Assembly (NCBI RefSeq): GCF_006970445.1
Contig: NZ_CP033877.1
Location: 1,558,750-1,622,749, forward strand
DNA from: Stenotrophomonas maltophilia
Lineage (GTDB): Bacteria; Pseudomonadota; Gammaproteobacteria; Xanthomonadales; Xanthomonadaceae
Direction: 5' to 3'
DNA length: 64,000 nucleotides
Shown: piece by piece, positions 34,345 through 38,153 of the stretch
Layout of the letters: each line of letters begins with the position of its first letter
Position numbering within the stretch: position 1 is the stretch's first letter
Notes under the pieces: generated by a model
Databases searched by the model: none
What the model was told of the DNA's origin: nothing
What the model saw: the letters and a program-made list of their open reading frames with translations, nothing else
Translations under genes and position numbers: made by a program

Positions 34345-34445
34345 ATCCACGCATGGCGTGGATCTACTGGAAATTTTGCATCCACAGATGATGCGGATCC
34401 ATCGGTTTGCGGGGATGCTGTAGTAGATCCACGCCATGCGTGGAT
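34345..34445. repeat. Inverted pair of SMAG (GTAG-type) REP elements
   Basis: Two 23-base units in inverted orientation: one ending in GATCTAC (34345-34367, read on the minus strand as GTAGATCCACGCCATGCG) and one starting GTAGATCCACGCC (34423-34445). Both have the stem ATCCACGC/GCGTGGAT. This belongs to a different stem subfamily from the pair at 1365-1439. Confidence 0.85.
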
Positions 34446-34524: not shown

Positions 34525-34600
<76 letters not shown>

Positions 34601-34636: not shown

Positions 34637-34663
34637 CGTTATGCGCGGCCGTGTCCACGCGGA

Positions 34664-35224
34664 TCAATCATCATCCTGTGTCGACGCACGCGCACGCATG
34701 CCGGTGATGCGTGCTTCCTCGCGTGCCACCTGACGGTCGGCAAACCACTCCTGCACATCTCCCGCGAAACTCGCCGGTCGCCCCTTGCCCTGCACGCCCT
34801 CGGCGATCGAGGCCAGGCTGGAACGCGCGAGCTCCTCGCGCATGGCTTTCTGTGCATTGATCATCACCGCGTGGATGCCGCACACGCCACGGTTGGCCCA
34901 TCGGGGTGGGGCACCATCAAACAGCGCGCAGCGCCCACGGATTTCCTGGCAGTCGAACAGTGCCTTCTGTCCCTCAACGGCATCGACCACATCCAGCACG
35001 CTGATGTCTTCGGGCGCACGCGCCAACTGGTAGCCGCCACGGATACCACCCGTGGACTCGACGATGCCGGCCTTCTCCAGCTTGGGGAAGATCTTTGCCA
35101 TGAAGGCCGCAGGCACGCCCTGAAGCTCGGCCAGGTCGCGGCTGCTTGGCCGCTGCTCCAGCGGCGGGACCAGCCAGAGCAGGCAGTGCAGGGCGTACTC
35201 GACGCCCGTTCCGATGTGGGCCAT
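34664..35224 (-). CDS. Rrf2-family transcriptional regulator with Fe-S cysteines
   Basis: 186-residue winged-helix regulator of the Rrf2 family (IscR/NsrR relatives). The N-terminus MAHIGTGVEYALHCLLWL and the recognition region (SSRDLAELQGVPAAFMAKIFPKL) followed by the wing GIRGGYQLAR are typical. Three cysteines in the pattern FDCQEIRGRC ... GVCGIHAVM could hold an Fe-S cluster. It extends about 30 residues beyond the core with a charged tail. It is divergent from an NDH-2-like flavoprotein gene, and the sequence ATAACGCGGACT occurs before both genes, indicating self- and neighbour control. It probably senses redox or nitrosative stress. Confidence 0.92.
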   Translation of the reverse strand: MAHIGTGVEYALHCLLWLVPPLEQRPSSRDLAELQGVPAAFMAKIFPKLEKAGIVESTGGIRGGYQLARAPEDISVLDVVDAVEGQKALFDCQEIRGRCALFDGAPPRWANRGVCGIHAVMINAQKAMREELARSSLASIAEGVQGKGRPASFAGDVQEWFADRQVAREEARITGMRARASTQDDD

Positions 35225-35242
35225 GGGACCGGTCCATAAAAA

Positions 35243-35260
35243 ATATAACGCGGACTATAG
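35243..35260. promoter_or_regulatory. Candidate Rrf2 half-site before the Rrf2 gene
   Basis: ATATAACGCGGACTATAG matches one arm of the long palindrome at 35387-35429 in the core TAACGCGGACT and lies 20-36 bases upstream of the Rrf2 start, a position suited to autorepression. Confidence 0.6.
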
Positions 35261-35384
35261 GGGCCTGAGTTACCCGCCGCAACCCTGCGGAACTTCATGC
35301 AGATCTTTGATTTCATTGGCGTTGTGGCGGGGAAAAGGAATAGGGCAGGGAGGCGCTGGCCTGAACCGCGCCGCCGTCAGGCGC

Positions 35385-35429
35385 TTGCACCACATAACGC
35401 GGACTCATATGATCCGCGTTATGTGGTGC
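35385..35429. promoter_or_regulatory. Long palindromic operator with embedded promoter of the NDH-2-like gene
   Basis: Perfect 17-base inverted arms (35387-35403 and 35413-35429; core CATAACGCGGA / TCCGCGTTATG) flank a nine-base centre. A plus-strand promoter lies exactly inside: TTGCAC (35385-35390), 17-base spacer, TATGAT (35408-35413). A dimeric repressor on the arms would cover both promoter boxes. The transcript would have a leader of about 90 bases before ATG/GTG 35510. The neighbouring Rrf2 protein is the obvious candidate binder. Confidence 0.7.
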
Positions 35430-35509
35430 GCCGCTGCAGCACATCGCCCGCGCCCGTGCCGTCCGGGCACCCGGGCGCCTGAACCCCCATTCCCTGAAGG
35501 ATTTCCTCC

Positions 35510-36721
35510 GTGTCCCAACGCATTCTTGTCATCGGCGCCGGCTTTGCCGGCATGTGGAGCGCGCTCGCCGCCGCCCGTCTTCTCGACCAGGTCGCGCGTC
35601 GTGATGTGGAGATCGTGCTGGTGGCGCCGTCGCCGGAACTGCATGTGCGCCCGCGCCTCTACGAAAAGGGACCGGAGCGCATGAAAGCGCCGCTGCAGGC
35701 GATCTTCGATGCCGTTGGCGTGCGCTACCTTGCCGGCCGCGTTGAACACATCGACGCTGCCAACCAGCAGGTGCAGGTGGTGGACACGGGTGCCGATGCC
35801 GCAACGCAGAAATTGCGCTACGACCGCCTGGTGCTGGCCGCCGGTAGTCGTCTGAACTGCCCGCCCATTCCCGGCTTGCAGCAGCACGCCTTCAACGTCG
35901 ACCAGATTGCCGATGCAGCCCGCCTGCAGGCACATGTGGAAGGCCTCGCCGCTCGCCCGCAGAGCGCGGCGCGAAATACGGTGGTGATCGCGGGCGCGGG
36001 CTTCACCGGTATCGAAACCGCGGCAGAAATGCCGACGCGCCTGCGCGAAGTTCTCGGTGCCGATGCTGCAGTAGACGTCATCATGGTCGAGCGCGCCGAT
36101 GCGGTGGGCCCGGACCTGGGCGAAGGCCCGCGCCCTGTCATCACGCAGGCGCTCAAGGAATTGGGTGTGTCCTGGCGGCTGGGCTCGGGCGTCGCTCGCG
36201 TGGATGCGGAGGGCGTGACGCTGGAAAACGGAGAACGCATCGACGCCGCCACCGTTGTCTGGACGGCCGGTGCACGTGCCAGTGCGTTGACTGCTCAGAT
36301 TCCCGGCCAGCACGATGCGGTGGGTCGCCTGCACGTGGACCGCACGCTGAAGGCGAACGGTGTCCACGCGGTGTTTGCTACCGGCGACTGCGCGCATGCC
36401 GCCACCGATGACGAGGGCAACGTGGCGATGATGTCCTGCCAGCACGCGATGAACCTGGGGCGCTCCGCCGGACACAACGCCGCGGCTGACCTGATCGGGG
36501 AAGCGATGATTCCGTATGCGCAGCCCAAGTACGTGACCTGCCTGGACCTGGGGCCGTGGGGTGCGGTCTACACCGAGGGCTGGGATCGCCAGGTGGTGCT
36601 GGCCGGTGCCGAAGCCAAGGCGCTGAAGACCCGCATCAACACCGAATGGATCTATCCACCCAGTGGCGCGCGCGCGGAGATCCTGGCGTCTGCAGATCCG
36701 CTGCGGATCGTTGTGGCCTGA
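35510..36721 (+). CDS. NAD(P)/FAD-dependent oxidoreductase, type II NADH dehydrogenase-like
   Basis: 403-residue flavoprotein of the NDH-2 family. The start GTG 35510 follows AAGGA. An FAD-binding GxGxxG (VIGAGFAGMWSA) opens the protein, a second Rossmann motif for NAD(P)H (VVIAGAGFTGIETAAE) is near residue 162, and the FAD-contact motif GVHAVFATGDCAH is near residue 285. The C-terminal QHAMNLGR and LDLGPWGAVYTEGWDR regions fit NDH-2/SQR relatives. It would pass electrons from NADH to quinone without pumping protons. Control by the divergent Rrf2 gene through the embedded palindrome is likely. A rho-independent hairpin follows. Confidence 0.88.
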   Translation: MSQRILVIGAGFAGMWSALAAARLLDQVARRDVEIVLVAPSPELHVRPRLYEKGPERMKAPLQAIFDAVGVRYLAGRVEHIDAANQQVQVVDTGADAATQKLRYDRLVLAAGSRLNCPPIPGLQQHAFNVDQIADAARLQAHVEGLAARPQSAARNTVVIAGAGFTGIETAAEMPTRLREVLGADAAVDVIMVERADAVGPDLGEGPRPVITQALKELGVSWRLGSGVARVDAEGVTLENGERIDAATVVWTAGARASALTAQIPGQHDAVGRLHVDRTLKANGVHAVFATGDCAHAATDDEGNVAMMSCQHAMNLGRSAGHNAAADLIGEAMIPYAQPKYVTCLDLGPWGAVYTEGWDRQVVLAGAEAKALKTRINTEWIYPPSGARAEILASADPLRIVVA

Positions 36722-36742
36722 CGGCGCAGAAACGTTCTGCGA

Positions 36743-36768
36743 GCAACGCTCCCGAAAGGGAGCGTTGC
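36743..36768 (+). terminator. Terminator of the NDH-2-like gene
   Basis: Stem GCAACGCTCCC / GGGAGCGTTGC with a GAAA loop, 21 bases after the stop. A long T-tract is absent, but the hairpin is very stable. Confidence 0.75.

Positions 36769-38077: not shown

Positions 38078-38153
<76 letters not shown>

Follow-up and report, generated by a model that had tools for sequence, protein, structure and literature searches.

A 25-bp palindrome lying over a promoter in the Stenotrophomonas maltophilia DNA analysed here (a stretch of 64,000 nucleotides, referred to as the window) is very probably bound by an RsrR-like iron-sulphur redox sensor. The sensor would be the product of the adjacent rrf2 gene (186 residues, 34664..35224, minus strand), which forms a divergent pair with the gene for an NDH-2-like FAD/NAD(P)H flavoprotein (403 residues, GTG start, 35510..36721, plus strand). 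With a probability of roughly 60%, we favour the reading in which the palindrome is the operator of this RsrR-like repressor, which would govern its own gene and that of the flavoprotein as an NAD(P)H feedback valve. The genes, the conservation of the ligands, the operator, the register of the promoters and the co-occurrence of the components are all read from the sequence.

A 17-base inverted repeat with a 9-base centre had been reported in a preliminary description of this DNA, and the arms are indeed exact, occupying 35387-35403 and 35413-35429, 17 nt each and 100% complementary on either side of a 9-nt centre. The whole 17-9-17 repeat (35387..35429) is the longest perfect inverted repeat in the window with a loop of up to 20 nt, the runners-up being 14 bp, and from the composition of the window about 0.0004 repeats of 17 bp would be expected by chance. 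From comparison of the sequences the conserved operator is the 25-bp site within it, O1 (AACGCGGAC-TCATATG-ATCCGCGTT, 35396..35420), and the outer 9 bp of each arm, which are lineage-specific, are not part of it. The full 17-bp arm was considered as the operator and rejected, since full pairing of the outer 9 bp is confined to some Stenotrophomonas. Pairing is complete in the window, L006, L007 and L088 (L085 and L086 have the same palindrome letters as L006 and L007), extends over 8 bp in L075 and is reduced to 2-3 bp in L008, L089, L090 and L091. Across the Stenotrophomonas copies whose outer arms differ, the 25-bp site varies at just 0-2 positions. On a motif trained without Stenotrophomonas O1 scores 31.0 bits and is the top-scoring position of the window, followed by a degenerate 25-bp site before rrf2, O2 (35247..35271, 19.35 bits), with the third position at 4.4. 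Because it is the second-best position of this held-out scan, O2 is taken to be a full, degenerate operator. A half-site had earlier been proposed here; the shared sequence is present, a 12-nt stretch, ATAACGCGGACT, being found at both 35245-35256 and 35394-35405, but it belongs to a complete 25-bp site rather than to half of one. The centres of O1 and O2 are 149 bp apart.

The palindrome was expected to be conserved beside homologues of the two genes, and this is seen in the loci of relatives. Seventy-nine loci (L006-L084, mostly proteobacterial, from the best 80 of 398 candidates) were fetched with an alignment of 30 Rrf2 proteins, and a palindromic motif was trained on the sequence preceding rrf2 (200 nt at most) from 74 of the 75 loci outside Stenotrophomonas, the upstream region of the remaining locus being left out as a near-duplicate. 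This de novo search yields a 25-bp motif, AACgCgGACtataataGTCcGcGTT, that is the same as the site in the window, with a log-likelihood of 1080 against 54-63 for five shuffles (150 seeds per width in the real run and 60 in the shuffle runs). Widths of 21, 23 and 25 converged on the operator site and widths of 26-31 did not. When the motif was trained on 37 of the upstream regions, 35 of the 37 others scored higher than any of 740 shuffled ones. Within 200 nt of rrf2, 76 of the 79 loci have a site that exceeds 10.3 bits, a figure that is in-sample for 74 of them because the motif was trained on those very upstream regions; the exceptions are L016, L018 and L020, with L018 having a site at -395 and L020 at -412. 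Local shuffles of the 79 loci, which preserve single-letter composition only, gave 6 matches in 2,444,480 positions, or about 1 per pass.

Out of sample are the window and the Stenotrophomonas copies, the split half, 20 sites outside the training stretches, 12 further loci and two plasmid loci. The 20 sites, all above 10.3 bits and beyond the 200-nt stretches of the 79 loci, comprise six beside NDH-2-like genes, six pairs (twelve sites) preceding NmrA-like genes, and one each before a MocR gene and another rrf2. In the 12 further loci, which came from a search of the phylum with the window's own genome set aside, the best position is at most 235 nt upstream of rrf2 in 12/12 and exceeds 10.3 bits in 10; 10 of the 12 carry an NDH-2-like gene, divergently oriented in 8. 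In the two plasmid loci the site lies directly before the annotated rrf2 start. A second operator is found 31-43 nt from the first in 22 loci (for example L036, L051, L061 and L076; counted by hand), which suggests paired binding. Six Azospirillum loci (L033, L037, L050, L053, L054 and L068) have two sites about 40 nt apart before an NmrA-like gene, upstream of rrf2. Second rrf2 copies occur in L015 and L177, each with its own site directly upstream. In the gammaproteobacterial loci L148-L154 the operator drifts to forms like AACTACGAC-N7-GTCGTAGTT and the divergent flavoprotein is retained.

O1 and O2 overlie the spacer and -10 box of their predicted promoters in identical register. That of the flavoprotein gene (35385..35413, plus strand) consists of TTGCAC (35385-35390), a 17-nt spacer and TATGAT (35408-35413), and that of rrf2 (35254..35282, minus strand) consists of TTGCGG (35282-35277), 17 nt and TATAGT (35259-35254). 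The first pair of boxes is present as originally described, but their placement exactly in the arms of the repeat is a loose statement, as the first 2 nt of the -35 box precede the left arm and all of the -10 box but its last base lies in the centre. To call this a textbook promoter was also too strong. TTGCAC has 3/6 letters equal to TTGACA (counted by hand) and a consensus promoter scan called 0 promoters for the TTGCAC/TATGAT boxes, so that the reality of the promoter rests on comparison with the relatives. In these, 56 of 76 loci have a TTG starting 11 nt ahead of the site, where the background is 1.2% per position, a number that rises to 68 of 76 if distances of 10-12 nt are allowed, and positions 13-18 of the site read TANNNT in 60 of 76. 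The operator, from this register, covers the larger part of the spacer together with the -10 box, and both promoters of the window stand in the register of the relatives. In 48 of the 76 loci only 0-2 nt separate the operator from the start codon of rrf2, which is ATG in 48/48, and in 16 of these 48 no in-frame ATG, GTG or TTG precedes the rrf2 ATG after the last stop. Since 7 nt lie between the -10 box and the ATG, transcription would be expected to start at the ATG itself and a leaderless rrf2 mRNA is predicted for the abutting loci. The prediction does not extend to the window, where 22 nt separate the operator and the rrf2 start.

The product of rrf2 was correctly recognised from the outset as an Rrf2 regulator, the Rrf2 domain (PF02082, Pfam) scoring 109.4 bits against a cut-off of 30; the model of the monomer is fair, with a pLDDT of 80.4 and a pTM of 0.72. 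Among solved chains the nearest is that of S. venezuelae RsrR (6hsd, E 1.8e-20), which binds a [2Fe-2S] cluster via E8, H12, C90 and C110 and in which W9 is the switch (PMC9218516; the ligand types are also given in PMC11138216). The predicted ligands Glu9, His13, Cys92 and Cys115 align with Glu8, His12, Cys90 and Cys110 of RsrR and are conserved in 91, 91, 91 and 90 of 91 relatives, respectively. The single exception at Cys115 is L075, where the length of the match is not divisible by 3 and a frameshift is probable. An extra cysteine, Cys99, is found where RsrR has a glycine and is retained in 85 of the 91 relatives. Cys99 is absent from five of the seven Rrf2 proteins of L148-L154 and from that of L145. 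The tryptophan of RsrR is not found at the switch position, which is occupied by tyrosine in the window protein (Tyr10) and in 91/91 relatives. The protein is for this reason filed as RsrR-like rather than as RsrR, and its redox output could differ or reverse; IscR is of the opposite sign to RsrR (PMC12594620).

The published RsrR sites, AACTCGGAT-N7-GTCCGAGAT and TACTCGGAT-N7-GTCCGAGTC (PMC5015018, Table 3), equal the consensus at 14/18 and 13/18 arm positions in the same frame, 13/18 being reached by 5 of 100,000 shuffles of one RsrR site. Their scores on the trained motif are low, at 4.9 and 4.8 bits, with 99.9% of shuffled probes staying under 5.3, and the RsrR sites and the consensus are therefore related but not identical. 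Common to both systems are the aligned E/H/C/C ligands, a 25-bp operator with the core CGGAY-N7-GTCCG, the sharing of the operator by the regulator and a divergent gene, and NAD(P)H-related neighbours. The gene for RsrR is divergent from an NmrA-domain gene and is linked to NAD(P)H metabolism (PMC5015018). In the window the partner is NDH-2-like instead, although NmrA-like genes are the ones with paired sites in the 6 Azospirillum loci. The present group differs further in the tyrosine, in Cys99 and in the reach of the regulator. ChIP-seq gave 14 class 1 and 103 class 2 targets for RsrR (PMC5015018), whereas here strict sites are seen only at the regulator's own locus in the 30 genomes searched, and the operator often abuts the ATG. 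Judged by its ligands, operator and neighbours, the window Rrf2 very probably belongs to an RsrR-like branch. The idea of a new Rrf2 subfamily, raised in the preliminary description, is not supported, since both the ligands of the cluster and the core of the operator agree with those published for RsrR of Streptomyces venezuelae.

The flavoprotein (PF07992) has the two-domain FAD/NAD(P)H fold, and its nearest solved relatives are NDH-2-type enzymes, in agreement with its initial assignment. The similarity extends over the whole length for 4nwz (residues 5-388, E 2e-34), 5na1 and YjlD (9pxk), with E values from 2e-34 to 3e-23. These three carry the letters AQxAxQ, which we take to be the quinone motif of NDH-2, whereas the corresponding stretch is CQHAxx in 24/24 aligned flavoproteins and the second Gln is kept in 0/24. 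Two cysteines, Cys310 and Cys344 (window 36437-36541), are invariant in the 24, and one of them replaces the Ala of the motif. The name NDH-2-like is used here for an enzyme type assigned by sequence. Neighbour counts were taken from tblastn, as the ORF-based listing includes wrong-frame ORFs. The fetched DNA includes an NDH-2-like gene in 42 of the 79 loci, 29 times downstream on the same strand, 10 times divergent, twice upstream on the same strand and once convergent. Further neighbours are CMD, cupin and response regulator genes (12 loci each), NmrA-like and epimerase-like genes (10 each), MocR (6) and a flavodoxin-fold reductase (4).

The oxidised form of RsrR binds DNA tightly and the reduced form weakly (PMC5015018). 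By analogy, a [2Fe-2S] cluster would be held between two subunits, one contributing Cys92 and Cys115 and its partner Glu9 and His13, and the oxidised dimer would bind the 25-bp site, with its 9-bp arms and 7-nt centre, as RsrR does. The bound repressor would shut RNA polymerase out of the rrf2 and flavoprotein promoters, the polymerase being kept off both genes because each site covers the spacer and -10 box of one divergent promoter. In an over-reduced cell the cluster would gain an electron and the dimer would leave the DNA; the NDH-2-like enzyme would then be made and, by oxidising NAD(P)H, would reset the sensor. The cluster, the redox direction and the repression are here carried over from RsrR, and the reaction of the enzyme would follow from its homology. 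The notion of a redox valve, already put forward in the preliminary description, is consistent with the logic of RsrR. Counting against the favoured reading as a whole are the tyrosine at the switch, the low scores of the RsrR sites, the altered quinone motif and the presence of the NDH-2-like gene in little more than half of the loci.

It is possible, if rather unlikely, that the same regulator and operator respond to a quinone, an electrophile or a redox-cycling compound acting on the cluster or on Cys99, and that the flavoprotein is a protective reductase and no overflow valve for NADH. The assortment of other neighbours (CMD, cupin, NmrA-like, epimerase-like, MocR and flavodoxin-fold reductase) would fit such a role, as would the retention of Cys99 in most relatives and a flavoprotein in which the NDH-2 motif is missing its second Gln and Cys310 and Cys344 are invariant. 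The four cluster ligands are, however, conserved more strictly than Cys99. SifR provides a precedent in being an Rrf2 repressor with redox-related targets that senses quinones, but it is described as having a single conserved Cys, no cluster and a different operator, TGTAA-N9-TTACA (PMC9218516).

That the protein senses Fe-S demand, NO or iron in the manner of IscR, NsrR or RirA would seem improbable. These Fe-S regulators share the Rrf2 fold and the superfamily with the window protein, which also has three Cys in its connector region, but its scores on their NCBIfam models are far under the cut-offs, at 46 bits against 207.55 for IscR, 47.9 against 193 for RirA and 34.9 against 182 for NsrR; it is far under those of the CymR and HypR models as well. 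The ligand patterns also differ (PMC9218516). The spacing C92-X6-C99-X15-C115 departs from the Cys-X5-Cys-X5-Cys-X2-His of IscR (PMC9218516), and NsrR uses Asp8, C93, C99 and C105 (PMC9338935) where the window protein has Glu and another Cys spacing, with Cys99 missing in 6/91 relatives. Nothing found here speaks specifically for the sensing of NO or iron. As a hairpin, a terminator or a dispersed repeat that serves no regulator the palindrome is scarcely credible, since, for all its perfect long arms and an outer pairing that survives changes in L088 and L075, it is present as a single copy in its own genome at up to 3 mismatches, an Rfam search finds tRNA only and it is the 25-bp site over the promoter that different species have in common.

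The reach of the RsrR-like repressor was assessed with full operator sites only. A strict pattern gave 24 matches in 22 of 30 genomes and none in the other 8, with 1 control match; 23/24 lie inside the fetched locus and the remaining one before a second rrf2, and 24/24 are at an rrf2 of this group. No wider regulon emerged in the window's own genome, where a less strict pattern, at up to 3 mismatches, has 5 places, 2 of them the known sites, and the reversed pattern has 9. With this less strict pattern at up to 2 mismatches 33 of 398 genomes of the phylum match, but most of these matches look like chance because the reversed control matches widely too, and matches directly before rrf2 were seen only in the window's own genome, G241 and G535.

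To our knowledge, the chemistry of RsrR is known from one Streptomyces. The loci described here tie its ligand set and a matching operator to a recurrent NADH-handling flavoprotein in alpha-, beta- and gammaproteobacteria. A 2025 paper describes the signals that regulate RsrR in vivo as less known (PMC12594620). As the sensor, the site and the NADH-handling neighbours recur in many Proteobacteria, the natural role of the sensor becomes testable, and the concentration of nearly all of a genome's strict operators at a single locus points to a small system with one sensor, the signal of which should be measurable. The 25-bp signature could be used to find further such systems, and the predicted leaderless start beside the operator offers an additional point for experiment. 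A search covering the titles and abstract starts of open-access papers, with subscription papers outside its scope, returned no description of this proteobacterial group or of a leaderless Rrf2 gene. There is about an even chance that a widespread proteobacterial RsrR-like branch, with Tyr for the Trp of the switch and mostly the extra Cys, operates an NAD(P)H valve at a single locus by means of a fused control element of ~36 bp, in which the -35 box, the operator over spacer and -10 box, and the start codon follow one another without gaps, the mRNA of the repressor being leaderless and starting inside its own operator in most members.

Conservation across Stenotrophomonas and Xanthomonas, to which the preliminary description had looked, is sparse. 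With the window's own genome counted in each case, 9 of 91 Stenotrophomonas genomes have the Rrf2 protein, as does 1 of 149 sampled genomes of the family (E 1e-20). Elsewhere there are 1572 related proteins at E 1e-15, 120 of them listed, and 46 plasmid records carry relatives. In two Stenotrophomonas genomes rrf2 appears broken, with two pieces in G180 and the probable frameshift mentioned above in L075. Sixteen Stenotrophomonas loci were fetched around pgsA, and 12 of these are without the rrf2/flavoprotein pair at this place. Nine of the 12 (L098, L099, L100, L101, L102, L104, L107, L108 and L109) match the window as far as 34644-34645 and then, within about 10 nt, match again at 36767-36768; L105 has about 0.8 kb of other DNA at this position, and L103 and L110 run into another copy of tRNA-Gly. 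The clean junctions in the nine indicate that rrf2, the two operators and the flavoprotein gene are gained or lost together, as a block (34646..36766) that follows a tRNA-Gly. Copies of tRNA-Gly(GCC) at 34525-34600 and 38078-38153 flank the block together with the next gene, for a FAD-oxidoreductase, and the content between them varies in relatives. Between pgsA and tRNA-Gly, 34345-34368 and 34422-34445 are inverted 24-nt copies of a short palindromic repeat around GATCCACGCCATGCGTGGAT, and this repeat (34345-34445) is presumably REP-like.
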